A stretch of DNA of 64,000 nucleotides from NCBI GenBank assembly GCA_009773645.1, contig WSYB01000003.1, positions 62,001-126,000 on the forward strand. The letters are read 5' to 3'. The stretch comes from Geobacteraceae bacterium (GTDB lineage Bacteria > Desulfobacterota > Desulfuromonadia > Geobacterales > Geobacteraceae). This document shows positions 14,778 to 24,085 of this stretch, piece after piece; within the stretch, counting starts at the first letter, position 1; each line of letters starts with the position of its first letter. The translations under genes were made by a program, and so were the position numbers. The notes beneath the pieces are model-generated. The model was not told the origin of the DNA. It worked only from the letters and a program-made list of their open reading frames with translations, and did no database searches.

Positions 14778-15818
14778 CTATTTATTCCGCCAGTGAGCAT
14801 CAGGGCCTCGTCCAAGGCATTCGAGACGGGTCGCTTCCCGCTCCTGGCGCAAGATACGGCGGATCAGGTCAATACCAACCGCCGGACAGCGCTTCTGGAT
14901 GTCCTTGATGGAAAAGTCACCGTGCATGCTCCTGATAGCTTCGAGCACGGTGGCGGTCTTTGCCCCCTTTGCAGCGGAGACGTCCCCCACCCGGCTTTCG
15001 AATTCCCGATACGCCGTCTTCAGGATGAACAGCAGATAATTCACGTAATGCCACGGATCGTGCTTCCCTTCGTGCCATCCCCGGGAACTCAGCTCCAGCG
15101 TCTCGTAGTAGCGCTCTTTGTTTTCTTCTATGAGCCGTTCGAGACTGATGTAACGCCCGACCTCATAGCCCAGATGGTAGCACTGCAACAGGAGGAGGAG
15201 CCGGGAAACCCGGCCGTTGCCGTCGCGGAAAGGATGGATGCAGAGAAAATCAAGATTGAATGCGGCCAGAGCGATCAGTGGGTGCGCCCATCGCTCCCGT
15301 AAGCAGCTATTCCACATCTCCAGAAGTTCCGCCATGTAAGCCGAAGTCTTGTCCGCTTTGACCGTTTTGAAGCGTAACCGTTCCCTGCCGTCGGGATACC
15401 GCTCGATTATATCGCCATCCTTCTCTTTGAATTTTCCGGCATCCCAGATATCGCCACGTGTGAGACGGTGGAACTCCAGAATTGACTGTTCAGAAAGGGG
15501 GAGAGCGGCTCCTTTGGAATGGATGAGGTCGAGCGCCTGCCGGTAGCCGCGGACCTCTTCCTCATTCCGGTCATGAAGCAGCTCTTTTCCCAAGATTACC
15601 GCCTTGATGCGGCGCTCTTCCACGGTAACGCCTTCGATGCGGTTGGATGAGACGGCGCTTTCGATCAGTGCGTGTTCTCGCAGGGCTTTCAGCTTTTGCG
15701 GCGCCTGGCGGGTATAGAGTTCCTGGCGGCCCCGCGCCTCGCCCAGATCGGCCAGATACCAGGATGTGCTGGCGGGGATTGTTTCAAGTTTTCCGGCAAA
15801 CTGCTTGAAGGTCATCAT
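14778..15818 (-). CDS. Fic-domain AMPylase-type protein with N-terminal inhibitory helix
   Basis: Fic proteins transfer AMP or related groups from nucleotides to hydroxyl side chains of target proteins. This 346-residue protein has the core motif HPFRDGNGRVSR (about residues 194-205), which fits HPFx(D/E)GNGRxxR, so it should be catalytically competent. The inhibitory motif (S/T)xxxE(G/N) is present as SNRIEG near residue 60, making this a class II Fic in which the N-terminal helix restrains activity. The C-terminal region is probably a winged helix (SIKDIQKRCPAVGIDLIRRI). GGAG precedes the ATG. It is encoded alone beside a tandem repeat and the SIR2 gene. Target and function are unknown, and toxin, defence and regulatory roles are all possible. 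Confidence 0.9.
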   Translation of the reverse strand: MMTFKQFAGKLETIPASTSWYLADLGEARGRQELYTRQAPQKLKALREHALIESAVSSNRIEGVTVEERRIKAVILGKELLHDRNEEEVRGYRQALDLIHSKGAALPLSEQSILEFHRLTRGDIWDAGKFKEKDGDIIERYPDGRERLRFKTVKADKTSAYMAELLEMWNSCLRERWAHPLIALAAFNLDFLCIHPFRDGNGRVSRLLLLLQCYHLGYEVGRYISLERLIEENKERYYETLELSSRGWHEGKHDPWHYVNYLLFILKTAYREFESRVGDVSAAKGAKTATVLEAIRSMHGDFSIKDIQKRCPAVGIDLIRRILRQEREATRLECLGRGPDAHWRNK

Positions 15819-16234: not shown

Positions 16235-19200
16235 TCATCGCGCATTCCACCTACGCTTCAGTTCAATTAATCGAGAGTCATTCAACAAAGAAGGCTCTGC
16301 CTCTCCAATTTTAGTCAGAACATCTTCAATACCATATGGCCATTTTGTTGCGTTTTCAGGTAAAACGGCCCATATAAGCGCCAATGTCTTTTCCGGGTAT
16401 TTTGTGACAATCTCGTTCTTTGCCCCCCGTATGTGAGGAAGAAAAATGCCCTCCTCATCAATTCTAGTCACCAGTGGCAGAATTGTGTCTGTGACAATAG
16501 GAAACACAGCTTCATTCGAAAAGGCTAAATCACATAGCTTCGCGGATATACTCGGGCTCTTTGCTTGTTTCTGACGCGGCCAAACCTCTGTAAAGAAAAC
16601 AGGTAAATTCGCTCTCCAAGAGCCTTTCCCTCCTTCAGAGGACCATCTCTCCAACTGCCAAATTACCTGGCCTCGGAAATCATCATCTGCATTAAGCAAA
16701 ACAGTACGCATCTCCTCATTTGTAATGAAGCGTTTCCCTGTTTTCTTGTACGGACTTCCCCATCCGGCCAAAAGAATTGCCGACAAAACATTGCCCTCTC
16801 TTCGCCCAACAACATGCTTGTCCAGAGCAAGCTTTATGAACCGAGGCTTCAAACGGAGGTAAAGTTTTTCGTTCGGAACAGTTGCAGCCCAGAGAAAGCC
16901 GTCCCAAAAGGCATCGTGATCCTCGTCTTCATTGCCAAGAGCAGAGAGAATATTCTTATCGGTCCAGGCAGGAGCAATTGCATAAAACCAATTCAGGTGA
17001 AATGCAAACATTACCAGTGCATACCGCCTGTGGTCACCCGGCAAGCCCAGCAATTCTTCAACATGGGTGGTCCAAGGTATAGGAAATCCTTTCCCGGCTT
17101 TTAATCCCTCCTTCTGTGGATCATTCATGATGGCTTGCGCCAATTTGCCAACCGGCGAATTCAGCGCTTCCGTCGCCCATGCCGGGTCCTTATCCCCGCG
17201 AACTAAACCCGTTTTGGAGATTTCTGATGCAGTCCTTAACACTTCGACAATCTTTGACCATATCCCTTCGAATTGTTCCGGGTAGCTATTAATCAGGGCT
17301 TTACTGGATTTTTGAAGCCAATCCGCTGTTGGATAAATAAATCCTGCAACTGCGTCGGTCGATAAATTTGCTAATCTTTGGGCAATCAGCGCTGAGAACC
17401 GCGGCTTATCTTTTTCCCTCGCAGGAGAATATAGAAACTTTCTCCAGGCCCACTCCGGCCATTCTCCTTTTTTCGCTGAGATGTTGAGCGCCGAAAATGC
17501 ACGAATTGGTCGTTCGGAAGCCAATCCCGCAAAGGGATCTTTTTCTACGAATCCTTCAGTCATACGACCGCTAAGTTCCCTAGCCTTGCCGAGAAGTGAG
17601 TACAACGGTTCAGCAAGCAGCACTGAGAACTCTGAGTCAGTTCGGACAGTGCCACCACGACTTTCCATGGAAGCGGCGGCCTTAGCTGCGTATTGCTGTT
17701 GCCATTCAGGTGCAAACTTCTGCAACTTGGCGCTTTCCGTTTGCAGGTCGAAGCTGAAACCGCAGCCATTTTTATGAAGCCAATGTATGCGGTTTAGAGA
17801 GCTCCAAGCACGCCATTTTTCATATTCTTTCTTATCTTCCCCTTTTAAGCGTGAGTAACCTCTTAGCAGCCGCTTCTCCATCCGCTTCCTCATTGACTCA
17901 GGGAAATCACTCCATCGTTGTCCCAGAGTCAGCATGAGATCTCTTTTATGGTGGCTATCCCAAAATACGCCGTCATTCAGACTGCAAAGCAACTGACCAG
18001 TTTCGGCGCCGGTAAGAAGTTCTTGACGACCGGACGCCCATATTCTTAATCGGGCAAAGACCTTGTCATCATCTGTCCACCAAGCCAGATACTCCTGTTT
18101 CGCTAGTTCCGGGTTTTGAATAATGAGCCTCTTGAAAAGGTTTACATAGAAGAGGAATGTATGCGAGATGCCGTAATGCCTATCTGAAGACTCTCCTTCC
18201 AAATCCGGGTCCGGTTCTATCGGACAGAGAGTGAGATAACTAAATCCTTCAAGTTCTTTCTCAAGGGAAACGGCGTGTTCCAGATTCTTCCGGAATTCCC
18301 GAACAGCGGTTACGAGATGTTCGTCAGGGATTTCTACCTTCTCGTGAAGCTCCGGATACTTTACATCCAGGCTTATCATTTGCCTGACACTAATGCCGTC
18401 AATGTTTTCCGGAGGTTTCGGTCCACCACTATATGGCCATTCCAATTTCAAATAGGGCCGCCAAATCGAAGCGACCTCCCTTACCGCAGCATCAGACCAG
18501 CCATCAAGATCAATCGCAGCCTTCAGTTGATACCATTCATGATAGTCTTCTTTACACGTGCCCCATGCTTCGAAAACATAACGCCATGCTCGCCGGACTG
18601 CGGGAAAGGATTCTTGTTTTCTTCGTTCTAGTTCATACAGGATACGAGCTTGTATCCCGGAATGGAGTCCGGCTTGATGAGATGCCCACCAGACCGATGC
18701 AGGTTGATACGAAACCACACTAATCCAAAGACCAAGTTGCCATAACCGATTGGGCAACGTGGGCATATTAACTGAGTAATGCCCCCTTAATGCGGCAAAG
18801 TTGCTGTCTTGGAAATTTTGTCGATCAAGCCTGGTTGCGGCAAAGCAATTCCATACGCCTTCAGGAATCTCTCTCTTTGCCCAATGATCTTCAGGATCAA
18901 TCTTTGGGGGTATCGGATCACCGTCCAATCCGTATGATTCAAAAGGATCAAAATACGGCCCTCGTTCAAAATAACTGCCGAGATTGCCAGGCTTCAGATA
19001 TCGTATAGCAGGATCAAAAACGCACAACCATTCGGCAGGAAGCGGATTTTCGGAAGCGGTGACCCTCTTTGCCCCTTCAAGAGTAGAGACAATATGTGCT
19101 ACCTGTCCTCTTTCGTGAGGTAGTAGAGCTTCCGGCCCTTTTCGGGCCATGTCAATGACATTTCCGTGCCATAATTCGGGGTTCTGCGCTCTGCAAGCCC

Positions 19201-20062
19201 AAGCACCCAATGTATCCCAAAGAGATCTATGCCCGTCAGTTTCGTCATATGCGATCGGCAAAACTCCCTTATGCCGCCACTTGGCCTCCGCGTCACTTTG
19301 CGAACCGGCCTGAAAGGCGTACATACTTGACAAAGATTTCTGATGCTTATTCAGGGCTTCCAGCAGATATAGCACAGGCGGGTCATCGGCAGCATATCCT
19401 ACGAAAACCACGATGAATTTGTCCAGAATTGAACGTATGAACTGTGTTGCCCAGCCATCGGCAAGGTAGGCGTTGCCAAATTCCGAGCTCGACAAAACAA
19501 AACCATCACCGGAAGCCCCCCGATATTCCTTATCGACGTGACCGTGTAAATGGATAACCCCCTCAAATTCTTCGGAGCGCATTGGATCTGGCAGGCGAGG
19601 TGGCCTGAAATATGGTAGGGAGCTGTCGCAGGTCTCGAATAGAAGATCAAAGTTCGTTGTGACAAGTCTGGTTTTCCCTTCAGGAGACCGCGCCAAATCA
19701 AGCATTATCCGGTGTGCTGAAAGATCTACATCCGCCTTTGGTTTGAGGGCATCTGCAACCGACGCTTCTATCTCGCGGACAAGGAAATCTCGTTCAAGAA
19801 GACCGAAAACTCTGTCAGCCGAAATGAGTCCACTAATACCGGTTCGTTTGTCTAATTCTCGCGCTTCAGTTATGAGCTTTCGTACTGGATCGTCTGCTGT
19901 AACGCCCAAACTATCAGTAACCTTTTCCGCCAATCCGAAGAAATCCGAGAGACCTGCGCGAGCACGCGAAACACCGGCGCCACAGAAGAAAATTACTCTA
20001 CCGTCGTCTCTGGCGACTAGCAAATCGTCGGGTATTGATGGGCCATTAGCATGAAATCGCAT
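16235..20062 (-). CDS. large SIR2-domain protein, candidate anti-phage defence sirtuin (DSR1-like)
   Basis: This 1275-residue protein has an N-terminal SIR2 domain and a very long, mostly helical C-terminal region without a recognised domain. SIR2 features in order are FFCGAGVSRARAGLSDF (residues 25-41, NAD-binding GAGxS), VTTNFD with Asn137, HLHGH with His171/His173/His175, and FVGYAADDPPV (220-230). The Asn and His are the catalytic pair of NAD-degrading defence sirtuins such as DSR1 and DSR2, which have the same order of a SIR2 head and a long phage-sensing tail. The gene stands alone beside a fic gene and tandem repeats. By eye it is less GC-rich than its neighbours, which suggests acquisition by transfer. 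The defence role is inferred. Confidence 0.85.
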   Translation of the reverse strand: MRFHANGPSIPDDLLVARDDGRVIFFCGAGVSRARAGLSDFFGLAEKVTDSLGVTADDPVRKLITEARELDKRTGISGLISADRVFGLLERDFLVREIEASVADALKPKADVDLSAHRIMLDLARSPEGKTRLVTTNFDLLFETCDSSLPYFRPPRLPDPMRSEEFEGVIHLHGHVDKEYRGASGDGFVLSSSEFGNAYLADGWATQFIRSILDKFIVVFVGYAADDPPVLYLLEALNKHQKSLSSMYAFQAGSQSDAEAKWRHKGVLPIAYDETDGHRSLWDTLGAWACRAQNPELWHGNVIDMARKGPEALLPHERGQVAHIVSTLEGAKRVTASENPLPAEWLCVFDPAIRYLKPGNLGSYFERGPYFDPFESYGLDGDPIPPKIDPEDHWAKREIPEGVWNCFAATRLDRQNFQDSNFAALRGHYSVNMPTLPNRLWQLGLWISVVSYQPASVWWASHQAGLHSGIQARILYELERRKQESFPAVRRAWRYVFEAWGTCKEDYHEWYQLKAAIDLDGWSDAAVREVASIWRPYLKLEWPYSGGPKPPENIDGISVRQMISLDVKYPELHEKVEIPDEHLVTAVREFRKNLEHAVSLEKELEGFSYLTLCPIEPDPDLEGESSDRHYGISHTFLFYVNLFKRLIIQNPELAKQEYLAWWTDDDKVFARLRIWASGRQELLTGAETGQLLCSLNDGVFWDSHHKRDLMLTLGQRWSDFPESMRKRMEKRLLRGYSRLKGEDKKEYEKWRAWSSLNRIHWLHKNGCGFSFDLQTESAKLQKFAPEWQQQYAAKAAASMESRGGTVRTDSEFSVLLAEPLYSLLGKARELSGRMTEGFVEKDPFAGLASERPIRAFSALNISAKKGEWPEWAWRKFLYSPAREKDKPRFSALIAQRLANLSTDAVAGFIYPTADWLQKSSKALINSYPEQFEGIWSKIVEVLRTASEISKTGLVRGDKDPAWATEALNSPVGKLAQAIMNDPQKEGLKAGKGFPIPWTTHVEELLGLPGDHRRYALVMFAFHLNWFYAIAPAWTDKNILSALGNEDEDHDAFWDGFLWAATVPNEKLYLRLKPRFIKLALDKHVVGRREGNVLSAILLAGWGSPYKKTGKRFITNEEMRTVLLNADDDFRGQVIWQLERWSSEGGKGSWRANLPVFFTEVWPRQKQAKSPSISAKLCDLAFSNEAVFPIVTDTILPLVTRIDEEGIFLPHIRGAKNEIVTKYPEKTLALIWAVLPENATKWPYGIEDVLTKIGEAEPSLLNDSRLIELKRRWNAR

Positions 20063-20221: not shown

Positions 20222-20249
20222 TGGACTTAACGCACCGATTCGGTATAAT
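20222..20249 (+). promoter_or_regulatory. sigma-70 type promoter for the methyltransferase cassette
   Basis: TGGACT (20222-20227) and a perfect TATAAT (20244-20249) are 16 bases apart. Transcription would begin near 20256, which supports the ATG at 20299 over the longer frame from 20221. Confidence 0.6.
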
Positions 20250-20298: not shown

Positions 20299-21333
20299 AT
20301 GAACCGGAACGGTTCTGCCGGCGTGAAGAGACCACGGAGCGACGATCGCGCTCTCTGGGACATTGTCATGGGTATTTACGGATATCAGGCCGTGCTCCTT
20401 TGCCACGAACTCAAGCTCTTTCCCTTTCTGGCCGGGGAGCCCCGCACGCTTCAGGAGATCGCCGACGCCATGAACATCGCCTCCCGACCCGCGCGAGCCC
20501 TTCTGCAGGTCTGCGTGGCGCTGAAATTGGTGCAGGCGCAGCAGGGATGTTATTCGCTCACGGCCGTTGCCGCAGATTATCTCCTCGAAGACAGCCCCGT
20601 CTATTTCGGCGGTTTCCTCGATTATACACTGGCGCATCGCGCCGTCCTCTCCTACGATGCCTTAAAAAGTGCCGTACTGACCGATTCTTCGCAGGTTTAC
20701 GGCAGCGCTGGGCTCTACGAGTCCCACGAAGAGCGGAAGGAGCTGGCGCGCGCCTTCACCCGGATGATGCACAGCCACAGCGTGGCTCCGGCGCTTGCCT
20801 GGCCGAAACAGATCGACCTCTCCGGGCACCGCACCATGCTCGATATCGGCGGGGGGTCAGGCGTCCACTCCATTGGCGCGGCGCTCTGCTGGCCGGGGCT
20901 CCAGGCCATTGTTCTCGATTTCCCCTCCGTGTGCGAGGTAGCCGAAGAGTACCTCGCGCGCCATGACTTGCGGAACCGCATCCGCACCCATACCGGCAAT
21001 ATGTGGCAAGACCCTTTCCCCCCGGCGGACGTCCACTTCTACGCGGACATCTTTCACGATTTTCCCCCCGGGAAGTGCCGCTATCTCGCGGGGAAGAGCT
21101 TTGCGAGTCTCGAATCGGGAGGGCTGGTCATCATCCACGAGATGCTCTACAACAGCGATAAGACCGGCCCCTTCACGGTCGCGGGGTATGACGTCTCAAT
21201 GCTCCTGTGGACCGAAGGGCAGCAATTCTCGGGCGGCGAACTGTCCGCCATGCTCGCGGAGGCGGGTTTCGTCGACATTGCCGTGACCGCGACGCTCGGT
21301 TACTGGCATATCGTCACCGGGATCAAGCCTTGA
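20299..21333 (+). CDS. SAM-dependent O-methyltransferase of the hydroxyindole/CrtF type
   Basis: The 344-residue protein has the two-part layout of small-molecule O-methyltransferases. An N-terminal winged-helix dimerisation domain spans about residues 15-110 (ALWDIVMGIYGYQAVLLCHE, TLQEIADAMNIASRPARALL). A Rossmann SAM domain follows, with MLDIGGGSGVHSIGAAL (about 185), VLDFPSV and the FYADIFHDFPPGKC segment (about 255). The catalytic-region His of this family is probably the His of IFHDFPP. AGGAGG is 5 bases before ATG 20299. It leads a cassette with a 36-codon ORF and a tryptophan dioxygenase relative, so an indole- or kynurenine-derived metabolite is a reasonable guess for the substrate, though not shown. 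Confidence 0.85.
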   Translation: MNRNGSAGVKRPRSDDRALWDIVMGIYGYQAVLLCHELKLFPFLAGEPRTLQEIADAMNIASRPARALLQVCVALKLVQAQQGCYSLTAVAADYLLEDSPVYFGGFLDYTLAHRAVLSYDALKSAVLTDSSQVYGSAGLYESHEERKELARAFTRMMHSHSVAPALAWPKQIDLSGHRTMLDIGGGSGVHSIGAALCWPGLQAIVLDFPSVCEVAEEYLARHDLRNRIRTHTGNMWQDPFPPADVHFYADIFHDFPPGKCRYLAGKSFASLESGGLVIIHEMLYNSDKTGPFTVAGYDVSMLLWTEGQQFSGGELSAMLAEAGFVDIAVTATLGYWHIVTGIKP

Positions 21334-21353
21334 GCGGCAAAGGAGGATATGCG

Positions 21354-21464
21354 ATGACAACGAATCACGTTTCATCACGGACAAGCGTTGCATTCGAATT
21401 CTTTGCGACGACTTCCCGCTTCTTTGTGGAGTCGGCCTGGGCGCGGGGTGACATACGTGAATAG
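21354..21464 (+). CDS. 36-residue peptide overlapping the dioxygenase start; function unknown
   Basis: ATG 21354 follows AAGGAGG with a 7-base spacer, the strongest ribosome-binding site in this cassette. The frame ends at TAG 21464. The peptide is Ser/Thr- and Phe-rich (SVAFEFFATTSRFF), carries a single Trp (ESAWARG) and ends DIRE. Its last codons overlap the GTG of the dioxygenase (GTGAATAG), so translation of the two is very likely coupled. It may be only a coupling leader. Because it lies between a methyltransferase and a tryptophan dioxygenase relative, a substrate peptide is an alternative worth testing. No similarity to a known precursor family was recognised. Confidence 0.5.
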   Translation: MTTNHVSSRTSVAFEFFATTSRFFVESAWARGDIRE

Positions 21465-22779
21465 CGAGAAAGCCGATGCCAATTGGTGGGACTTCTCCAT
21501 CGACAGCCGGGAACGGGGGGAGCGAATCAGGGATGATCAAGCCGCCGGGACCGTCGTGGTAAATCCCGCAGCCGACGGGCTGAGGCTTTTGTCGTACCAC
21601 ACATATCTCGGGCTCGACAAGCTCCTCACCTGCCAGGTCCCGAGTTCGCGGGTGCCGGATGAGCGGATATTCATCATCACCCATCAGCTCTTCGAGCTCG
21701 TCTTCAAGGAGATGATCTTCGACCTGCGCGTCATCGCCGAAACATTCCGGTCGCTCCTGGAAACAAACGATGAAGAGTTCTCCCGGCTCATCGGTCTCGC
21801 GGGAGAGATTGGTCCCGGCGAAACAGCGGGGGATTTCTGGCGGCCGGCCTTGACGGCTGCCGCAAGGACGAGGCACGGCGCCCGCAAAGTCATCCCCGAA
21901 TTGATGACTTATCTTGCCGCCGACGATACCTTCGCCAACGAGGAGTTTGCAAAGAAGTTCCGGGATAACCTGTCGCCCGCCAGCGGGTTTCAATCCGCCC
22001 AGTTCCGGCTCATCCAGCGGGCCTTCGGGAAGTCCCATTTCCTCGCTGTCAGGCTCTTTCCCGCCGACACGTATCTGAAGGCATACGAAGGGAAGAGCGA
22101 CGAAGAGCTCGTGCAGATCGTCCTTGAGTCCGGGAATGCCGGACTGGTGAGTGTTGTCGACAGGCTGATTCTTCGGGAGGAGACAGACATCGCCACTCCG
22201 CCGGCGGGCTCGCCGCTCGCACCGGTCGCTGAACTGGACGATACCGCGCACGAGGTCCTCACGAGGGTGGCGATCCTGAGCGGGGCAGAAGGAGAGGAGT
22301 GTGCACTACCCTTGCTATCCGCCGATGAAAACTCGGGAAAGGGGATGGGACGCAGGTTCGCGGAACGGTTGCGCGAGGCGGTCGAAAAAAAGAAAATGGC
22401 GCAGAATCAGCCGGCCACCCTGACGGGGGATGAATGCAGGATGATCGAAAAAAGGGTAGCGGTTTTCGGGAGGGATTGGGCGAACGCCATGGCCGGGGAG
22501 AATCGCCGCAGAGAGCGGTACGGGCTGGCCTGCCGGGGAGCCGAATTCCTCAAGGGCGAGAAACGGGAGGGTCCTCTCGCCTCCATTCTCAGCCGGCTGA
22601 CCGATGCCGACAGCGCGCTGTCCGGAAAATTTCTCCTCTTTCATCAGCAGGTCATCGCAAGAAGAATTGGAGAGGTAGCCGGTACCGCCGGTGGCGGGGT
22701 TCCCTACCTCGATTTTTCACGGGAACTGATCACCCGCTTCCCCGCTCTCGCGGGTTACGCAGCTGCGGGAGTGAAATAG
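21457..22779 (+). CDS. divergent tryptophan 2,3-dioxygenase family heme protein
   Basis: The 440-residue protein matches the heme-dependent tryptophan dioxygenase fold. The N-terminal part has LSYHTYLGLDKLLTCQ and the distal-side His76 in IFIITHQLFELVFKE. The substrate-carboxylate Arg184 is in LSPASGFQSAQFRLI. The proximal heme ligand is probably His396 in LFHQQVIARRIG, followed by the GTAGGGVPYLDF loop (409-420). Bacterial TDOs are near 280-300 residues. Here about 90 extra residues lie between Arg184 and His396, so the chemistry may differ from ordinary kynurenine formation. The start is GTG 21457, overlapping the 36-codon ORF. No kynurenine-pathway genes are nearby, which argues for a specialised product rather than tryptophan catabolism. 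Confidence 0.82.
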   Translation: MNSEKADANWWDFSIDSRERGERIRDDQAAGTVVVNPAADGLRLLSYHTYLGLDKLLTCQVPSSRVPDERIFIITHQLFELVFKEMIFDLRVIAETFRSLLETNDEEFSRLIGLAGEIGPGETAGDFWRPALTAAARTRHGARKVIPELMTYLAADDTFANEEFAKKFRDNLSPASGFQSAQFRLIQRAFGKSHFLAVRLFPADTYLKAYEGKSDEELVQIVLESGNAGLVSVVDRLILREETDIATPPAGSPLAPVAELDDTAHEVLTRVAILSGAEGEECALPLLSADENSGKGMGRRFAERLREAVEKKKMAQNQPATLTGDECRMIEKRVAVFGRDWANAMAGENRRRERYGLACRGAEFLKGEKREGPLASILSRLTDADSALSGKFLLFHQQVIARRIGEVAGTAGGGVPYLDFSRELITRFPALAGYAAAGVK

Positions 22780-22900: not shown

Positions 22901-24085
22901 ATGACCATTGATACCCTCTGCAAAAAGCTCCAGACCTCCATAACCTTCCAGTTGCGGCATGCCGAGGACGAATACGAACGGAGAGGGGTGTACGTCACCG
23001 GCCTCCAGGAATTCAGCAACACGGTGCTGCCGGCGCTGCACGTCCTGGGAGAAGCGGAGGGGGCGGAGACGAAAGCCTATATACAGGGGCAGGCGGCGGT
23101 TATCGACTTCCTTACCTGGCTGGCAATCCCATTTATCCGCTCCTGTACCGACCATGAAATCGCCGTCACGCTTCTTGACGAAATCGGCGCCGGATGCACA
23201 GACCCGCAGGTGCAAAAGAAGCTCACCATTTACACGAATCAGCTGAAGGCAAGGTGGCACCAGGCCGAGCCGGGGGGGCTTTCCCATAATCCCCGCGCCG
23301 TCCGGCACCGGCAGGGGAGCGGTAAACGGGGGTTTCCGCTGCTTCCCATCCTGATGGGAGTGCTGTTTTGCGTTCTGGGGGTGGGCATCGTTCTCAAGGT
23401 GATGTTTCCTCCGACCCTTCCCGAGGCAAAAGACTTTCAACCGGCCGCGCCCATTGCCGTAAAGGTAGCGCCCGTGACCAGTGAACCGCAATCGTCTCCC
23501 GAGCTCCCGCAGAAAATGAGCGAACCAAAGCCATCGGCACGTGCGGGCTCCGTTGCTTCCCCGTCTGAGCCGGACGGAGAGAATTTTTACCGCTACATCG
23601 ACAATCAGGGGGTAATCCATTTCGTTGACAATTCCGACAAGATCCCGCCCCGGTATCGCGGCAAAATGACCGTCTACAGGGATTCCCCCTCCACCAGCCA
23701 GACAACGAAAGTCCGGATCATCAACAACCAGGTGCTGGTGACGGTGACGCTGAGAAACGGTGACAGAACGGTGGACGCAAACCTGCTCCTCGATACCGGG
23801 TGTTCGGTGACAAACATCAATGGGGACCTGGCCGCCCGCCTGAACATTGACGGGCGTACAACAAGACCGGGGATTGCCCGGGTGGCGGACGGAAGAACGG
23901 TCGCTACCCGTATGGCACGGCTCGATGCCCTGTCCGTGGGGCCCCGGACGAAATCCCCCATTGAGATCAGCATCATGCCCAACTCCGGCCCCGGTGAGGA
24001 AGCGGACGGGCTCCTGGGAATGAATTTTCTCCGCGACTACGCCTACCACATCGATTTCAACAGCCAACATATCCGCTGGCACTAA
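22901..24085 (+). CDS. membrane-anchored retropepsin-like aspartic protease
   Basis: The 394-residue protein has a soluble N-terminal helical region and a single membrane helix (FPLLPILMGVLFCVLGVGIVL, about residues 146-167). A Pro/Ser-rich linker follows, then a DUF4124-like stretch (FYRYIDNQGVIHFVDN, about 228-243). The C-terminal domain is of the clan AA type, with LLDTGCSVTNI (about residue 298, catalytic Asp in DTG) and the matching GLLGMNFLRDYAYHID near the end. The protease domain is therefore probably periplasmic. It looks like a stand-alone gene. The substrate is unknown, and related single-domain retropepsin-like proteases act in envelope quality control. Confidence 0.8.
   Translation: MTIDTLCKKLQTSITFQLRHAEDEYERRGVYVTGLQEFSNTVLPALHVLGEAEGAETKAYIQGQAAVIDFLTWLAIPFIRSCTDHEIAVTLLDEIGAGCTDPQVQKKLTIYTNQLKARWHQAEPGGLSHNPRAVRHRQGSGKRGFPLLPILMGVLFCVLGVGIVLKVMFPPTLPEAKDFQPAAPIAVKVAPVTSEPQSSPELPQKMSEPKPSARAGSVASPSEPDGENFYRYIDNQGVIHFVDNSDKIPPRYRGKMTVYRDSPSTSQTTKVRIINNQVLVTVTLRNGDRTVDANLLLDTGCSVTNINGDLAARLNIDGRTTRPGIARVADGRTVATRMARLDALSVGPRTKSPIEISIMPNSGPGEEADGLLGMNFLRDYAYHIDFNSQHIRWH

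Follow-up and report, generated by a model that had tools for sequence, protein, structure and literature searches.

The 64,000-nucleotide (nt) stretch of a Geobacteraceae bacterium genome analysed here (contig WSYB01000003.1; hereafter the window, along which all positions are numbered, its host genome being labelled G000) carries on its forward strand a gene for an O-methyltransferase followed by one for a relative of tryptophan 2,3-dioxygenase (TDO), with an open reading frame (ORF) of 36 codons in between. A sequence-only reading of this DNA had described the three as a cassette behind one TATAAT promoter, encoding a small pathway for a methylated indole-derived product. Our profile searches established the two enzyme genes as real, and we delineate the features of the locus as follows:

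20222..20249, + strand: promoter-like site TGGACT-16-TATAAT (10/12 consensus matches; weak)
20299..21333, + strand: gene for a COMT-type O-methyltransferase of 344 aa (P0001; PF00891 E 2.2e-33, PF08100 E 1.7e-9, ASMT alignment, orthologues 46-57% identical)
21341..21347, + strand: Shine-Dalgarno (AAAGGAGG region) ahead of the 36-codon ORF, read from the sequence
21354..21464, + strand: 36-codon ORF (P0002), a probable leader lacking conservation, or a start region that was displaced (no family, no codon signature, chance matches only)
21457..22779, + strand: gene for a putative TDO-superfamily haem oxygenase of 440 aa with a GTG start (P0003; PF03301 E 4.6e-21, PDB relatives all TDOs)

The GTG start at 21457 is supported because the N-termini of the relatives start near the same place, and the same holds for the methyltransferase start at 20299 and its orthologues. 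The promoter-like site is indeed present ~50 nt upstream of the methyltransferase start, but sites of this kind number 3 in the scanned region, where shuffled sequence gives 1.2 +/- 1.0, and on its own this one is weak evidence.

The TDO-like protein and the methyltransferase

The TDO-like protein passes the curated cut-off of the PF03301 family (76.0 versus 34.9 bits), and its solved relatives in the PDB are all TDOs, the best of them being human, Drosophila and other long TDOs. Human Tyr42, Tyr45, Phe72, His76, Arg144, Arg159, His328 and Thr342 align respectively with its Tyr47, Tyr50, Phe72, His76, Arg169, Arg184, His396 and Thr410. This alignment assigns His76 as the distal residue, Arg169 as the carboxylate-binding arginine, Arg184 as the contact of the haem propionate and His396 as the axial ligand. 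The sequence-only reading had listed His76, Arg184 and His396 as residues that are kept; all three are present, but Arg184 is not the substrate-carboxylate arginine, since it aligns (in an FQSxQFR motif) with human Arg159, while Arg169 aligns with human Arg144, which we take to be the residue with that role. The roles of the other residues in TDO follow the excerpted text of PMC11904535 and PMC12312684, in the latter of which human Arg159 contacts the lower haem propionate. The aligned active-site residues are invariant across the three TDO-like orthologues and, variable loop places apart, across eight canonical plasmid-borne TDOs (annotated or evident): the axial His396, the distal His76, the substrate Arg169 and GT409-410 are present in 3/3 and 8/8 of these, respectively. 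The two loops of the active site read PASG (174-177) and GTAGG (409-413), with PASG and GTxGG found in all three orthologues. On the strength of family membership and alignment, this protein is a predicted TDO-superfamily haem enzyme with an intact active site.

The spacing of these residues puts the extra sequence of the protein in perspective. About 90 additional residues had been counted between Arg184 and His396, a figure that applies only in comparison with short bacterial TDOs; against human TDO the excess is about 43 (212 residues versus 169 from Arg159 to His328), and a further excess of about 25 separates His76 from Arg169 (93 residues versus 68). When a profile built from the three orthologues is compared with Drosophila TDO, positions 293-431 find a match in its chain (third stretch, i-Evalue 0.02), and by this comparison much of the supposed insertion aligns with the central region of that enzyme. 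The protein misses the cut-off of the TIGR03036 equivalog family (59.3 versus 390.7 bits), as do its orthologues (61.5 and 75.9); an annotated long TDO from Aureispira likewise falls below it (179.5 bits), suggesting that this cut-off suits short TDOs. In a tree of 11 rows, the three TDO-like proteins group together with 100/100 support, and the branch of this clade measures 3.48 changes per column; the placement of the long Aureispira row is unsure.

The methyltransferase lies well above the cut-offs both of PF00891 (115.8 versus 22.3 bits) and of the dimerisation domain PF08100 (37.8 versus 25.6 bits). Among solved structures, it is closest to 5i2h, human hydroxyindole O-methyltransferase (ASMT), the MTHB/DSYB methyltransferases, RedM and SibL, with E values of 4e-30, 2e-26 and 7e-23 against ASMT, RedM and SibL, respectively. 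His253-Asp254 align with the catalytic His255-Asp256 of ASMT and are invariant in 5/5 orthologues, whereas, in the excerpts of PMC4426599 and PMC10784701, SibL has Val-Ile at these places and RedM a Ser at that of the His. The retention of this pair makes O-methyl transfer the likelier chemistry of the enzyme, as judged from its alignment. As portrayed in the same excerpts, RedM works in a bisindole pathway (PMC10784701) and SibL acts on 3-hydroxykynurenine (PMC4426599). Three characterised relatives, ASMT, SibL and RedM, act on tryptophan-derived compounds.

Distribution of the pair and the kynurenine pathway

Across our sample of 395 genomes from the phylum, PF03301 is found in just three, namely G000, G279 (a Deltaproteobacteria metagenome-assembled genome, MAG) and G421, and all three genes belong to the TDO-like clade. 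The gene is present in 1/141 genomes of the order of the window and 1/277 of its class, in both cases only in its own genome, and in 1/5 and 1/24 genomes of the orders of G279 and G421, respectively. A profile search of a collection of genome contigs yielded one relative among 126 pattern matches, JACRCK010000182.1 from a groundwater MAG labelled "Deltaproteobacteria bacterium", which agrees with the G279 contig in its coordinates; a single-protein search of that collection recovered no relative, an absence that is weak evidence given that short peptide patterns limit these scans. Among plasmids, 15 records matched weakly, each over less than 80% of the TDO-like query; no relative was found in viral contigs, and phages searched with an annotated TDO gave no match. 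A match of about 75 residues in G258 (E 4.8e-4) was dropped, as that genome lies outside the three with PF03301; the reading frames there look like what we take to be FolD and a GcvT-like protein. The rarity and scattered distribution of the TDO-like gene suggest horizontal transfer.

The gene order recurs in G279, where an orthologous methyltransferase (57% identical) is followed on the same strand, 40 nt past its stop, by the TDO-like gene (53%), with no 36-codon ORF. Thus, of the order that had been proposed as a three-gene cassette, the methyltransferase/TDO-like pair is shared by two genomes from different classes of the phylum, but the arrangement with the short ORF is not. Full-text literature searching found, among the papers listed, no published description of such a pair. 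The methyltransferase has matches at E 1e-30 in 52/395 genomes of the sample, but only those in G279 and G437 (49%) exceed 36% identity. The G437 orthologue belongs to a run of three consecutive methyltransferase genes, and the sample of that genome gave no match to PF03301. On plasmids, the top two among the best 10 of 195 records are orthologues from Nostoc sp. UHCC 0926 (53.5%) and Gloeothece verrucosa PCC 7822 (45.9%).

Two of these orthologues have neighbours worth recording. On the Gloeothece verrucosa PCC 7822 plasmid (L050 5020-9035, + strand), a ScyA-related thiamine-diphosphate enzyme, a KAS III-like protein and the methyltransferase orthologue occur in a row, the first of these scoring 986.6 bits, just below the NF035927 cut-off of 1000. 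In the biosynthesis of scytonemin, the substrate of ScyA is indole-3-pyruvate, and the presence of its relative is a further hint, from one genome, of a tryptophan-derived substrate; it is possible that the Gloeothece row represents an indole-pyruvate-type pathway. In G437 (L042 7920-11340, - strand), there is a bufferin-type MNIO maturase (NF050167, 383.9 bits, above cut-off) with a DUF2063 partner and a small upstream Cys-containing ORF, and the three methyltransferases follow this operon after about 430 bp. We set the MNIO operon aside as a hint of a peptide substrate, both for that gap and because such genes occur at neither paired locus.

A divergent but ordinary TDO would convert free tryptophan to N-formylkynurenine, with the methyltransferase adjacent incidentally or for separate ends. 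Such an enzyme would be consistent with the retention of every TDO active-site residue and with the G421 gene, which stands without a methyltransferase. A third point in its favour comes from G279, where an alpha/beta hydrolase with HGGCW and GHSAG motifs (L006 3302-4183, - strand) is convergent with the TDO-like gene. It bears a weak resemblance (32% over 145 aa, E 1e-6) to hydrolases encoded next to canonical kynA genes and is not named kynurenine formamidase by NCBIfam; HGGxW is presumably the kynurenine formamidase motif, and the hydrolase could deformylate an N-formylkynurenine-type product. On the other side, the remark of the sequence-only reading that no kynurenine-pathway gene lies nearby is supported: kynureninase (TIGR01814, which was found in 10/14 controls at E 0.001) is absent from all three hosts of the TDO-like gene as well as from G437 (0/4 genomes), formamidase and kynurenine monooxygenase lying outside this genome-wide search. 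Annotated plasmid TDO loci have kynureninase next door in 3/7 cases (Streptomyces goshikiensis, Limnohabitans and Azospirillum), and that of Rhodococcus has an aminotransferase class V-fold enzyme alongside. Likewise, the 395 phylum genomes hold no further TDO-superfamily gene, the clade has lineage-specific insertions and a long separate branch, and two distant genomes share the same methyltransferase partner. In balance, a plain TDO is possible but rather doubtful.

The short frame and the neighbouring genes

The 36-codon ORF was said to have the best ribosome-binding site of the three genes and to overlap the dioxygenase start. Its site is indeed rare: the window holds 280 ORFs of 25-60 codons that begin with ATG, and no other has AGGAGG 5-16 nt upstream. 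The overlap is likewise confirmed, the end of the ORF sharing 8 nt, GTGAATAG, with the start at 21457. This exceptional signal, together with the placement of the ORF between the enzymes and the stop/start overlap, might point to a cassette for a ribosomally synthesised and post-translationally modified peptide (RiPP), in which the ORF encodes a precursor modified by both enzymes; in a similar vein, the sequence-only reading had offered the Trp-containing peptide as a substrate. However, the peptide has no counterpart at the second pair, where stop and start are 40 nt apart, nor before the TDO-like gene of G421. Family profile libraries gave no match, and database matches of the 36-mer are at chance level; the best full-length one (Nostoc sp. 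PCC 7524, E 3) was taken as chance because it falls within a gene that is annotated in a type III-B CRISPR cluster. The codon score of the ORF (-0.199 bits per codon) is below those of 156/156 leave-one-gene-out true-frame windows and 21/21 windows of the two flanking genes, with the caveat that 18/36 windows of an AT-rich Dsr1-like gene (see below) score as low; the chance of a frame of such composition staying open for 36 codons is 0.23. Furthermore, the oxygenase conserves an Arg and a Thr that in TDO serve to bind a free amino acid, at its carboxylate and its amine, respectively. We therefore reject the peptide reading, to which we give hardly any credence, on account of the non-conservation, the codon score and the chance-level matches; neither the three-gene order nor the peptide being conserved, the comparison that had itself been proposed counts against this part of the earlier interpretation.

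The ORF probably yields no peptide product and would represent a leader that is not conserved or a displaced start region. In G279, the sequence AAAGGAG, similar to its Shine-Dalgarno, directly precedes the dioxygenase ATG. Most simply, in the lineage of the window about 100 nt would now lie between an old ribosome-binding site and the dioxygenase. The short frame left there is most likely a by-product of the displaced start, and it may couple translation through the 8-nt overlap.

Several other genes flank the pair. Downstream, after 121 bp and on the same strand, lies a gene (22901-24085, +) for a 394-aa protein with a C-terminal aspartyl protease domain (PF13650 E 7.4e-15). On the other side, 16235-20062 (-) encodes a SIR2-domain protein of 1275 aa that is similar to Dsr1, an anti-phage sirtuin (PADLOC Dsr1 E 2.4e-86; NCBIfam NF041818 388 bits, below the 1400 cut-off), with a GC content of 0.48 versus 0.55 for the whole window. 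It adjoins a gene (14778-15818, -) for a 346-aa Fic protein whose nearest models are SoFic-type, and the two may form a small defence region that borders on the pair.

A possible tailoring module and its known relatives

Taken together, these observations lead us to favour, tentatively and at somewhat less than an even chance, a rare two-enzyme tailoring module that would combine TDO-type oxygenation with O-methylation of a tryptophan-derived small molecule. Like TDO, the haem enzyme would bind an indole amino acid in free form, either tryptophan itself or a substituted derivative, and would oxygenate or open its pyrrole ring with O2 to give an N-formylkynurenine-type product, one that would not go to kynureninase. 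Before or after this step, the methyltransferase would O-methylate a hydroxyl (or carboxyl) of the same molecule. No hydroxylase is seen at either paired locus, so a hydroxyl would have to be supplied by a gene elsewhere. Hence, the methylated indole-derived product of the sequence-only reading is retained on the basis of the recurrence of the pair, the intact active site, the relatives that act on tryptophan-derived compounds and the lack of a kynureninase match in the host genome, while the three-gene cassette is not. The module also draws support from the TDO-type loops, the His253-Asp254 of the methyltransferase, the ScyA-related neighbour in Gloeothece and the convergent hydrolase of G279.

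Several points weigh against such a module. The pair is carried by two genomes only, and the TDO-like gene of G421 (54%) has no methyltransferase on its 4395-bp contig, being preceded by a frame that we take to resemble the end of a receiver-domain protein. Conversely, the methyltransferase orthologues of G437, Nostoc and Gloeothece lack a TDO-like gene alongside, and the closest solved relatives of this enzyme include some for other substrates (5i2h and MTHB/DSYB). Finally, the AlphaFold models of the TDO-like protein (from 3 sequences) and the methyltransferase (from 2) have mean predicted local distance difference test (pLDDT) scores of 39.7 and 46.6, too low for a reading of the fold, so that the residue roles rest on sequence alignment.

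It is a bolder proposition, and one we consider questionable, that the TDO-like genes of Deltaproteobacteria define a new subfamily of haem aromatic oxygenases that branches deeply, and which with their own O-methyltransferase make an undescribed methylated tryptophan-derived metabolite rather than feed the kynurenine pathway. If true, it would place such a product pathway in a phylum in which hardly any other TDO-superfamily enzyme turns up. Few members of the superfamily act outside the kynurenine pathway. A clade that combines a complete TDO active site with insertions of its own, a methyltransferase partner and a genome lacking kynureninase would bear on the sequence features that decide their outcome, as it would allow diversion by substrate to be tested against diversion by active-site change, and a two-gene module is easy to reconstitute.

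Among known systems, TDO itself (PF03301; human 5TI9, Drosophila 4HKA) resembles the TDO-like protein in sequence family, in the checked active-site residues, in the PASG and GTxG loops and in the long-type central region. Identity to an annotated long TDO is about 27%, the two insertions of about 25 and 43 residues set it apart from the human enzyme, and the clade differs from TDO in its conserved DANWW N-terminus and in the lack of a kynureninase found in the genome.

MarE, the monooxygenase that forms the 2-oxindole of maremycin, shares with it the TDO superfamily, a possible tailoring role and, as predicted for the TDO-like protein, a haem with a His ligand. A MarE-like enzyme, making a 2-oxindole or 3-hydroxyindole in a natural-product pathway, would accord with the common superfamily and the tailoring-enzyme neighbour, and the TDO-like protein has a Gly at the final position of the GTGGS loop; as excerpted from PMC12312684, a change to GTGGA in human TDO brings more mono-oxygenation of indole-3-propionate, though not of tryptophan. 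However, the loops that divide TDO from MarE in the excerpts of PMC11904535 and PMC12312684 are PASG and GTGGS versus DATG and SLGGR, and the latter pair is absent from 3/3 TDO-like orthologues. The much longer protein of the window has PASG and GTAGG in their place. Arg199, present in 3/3 orthologues, aligns with human Arg172 within helices missing from MarE (which is without helices F and G in the excerpt of PMC11904535), though this position varies among canonical TDOs. With both diagnostic loops of the TDO type, the analogy to MarE drawn by the sequence-only reading fails and we reject a MarE-type assignment, regarding a MarE-like activity as unlikely.

Lastly, the methyltransferase and ASMT, RedM and SibL are all of the COMT-type family, and the catalytic His-Asp of ASMT is kept here; it differs from them in belonging to a bacterial subfamily of its own, whose orthologues come from Deltaproteobacteria and cyanobacteria.

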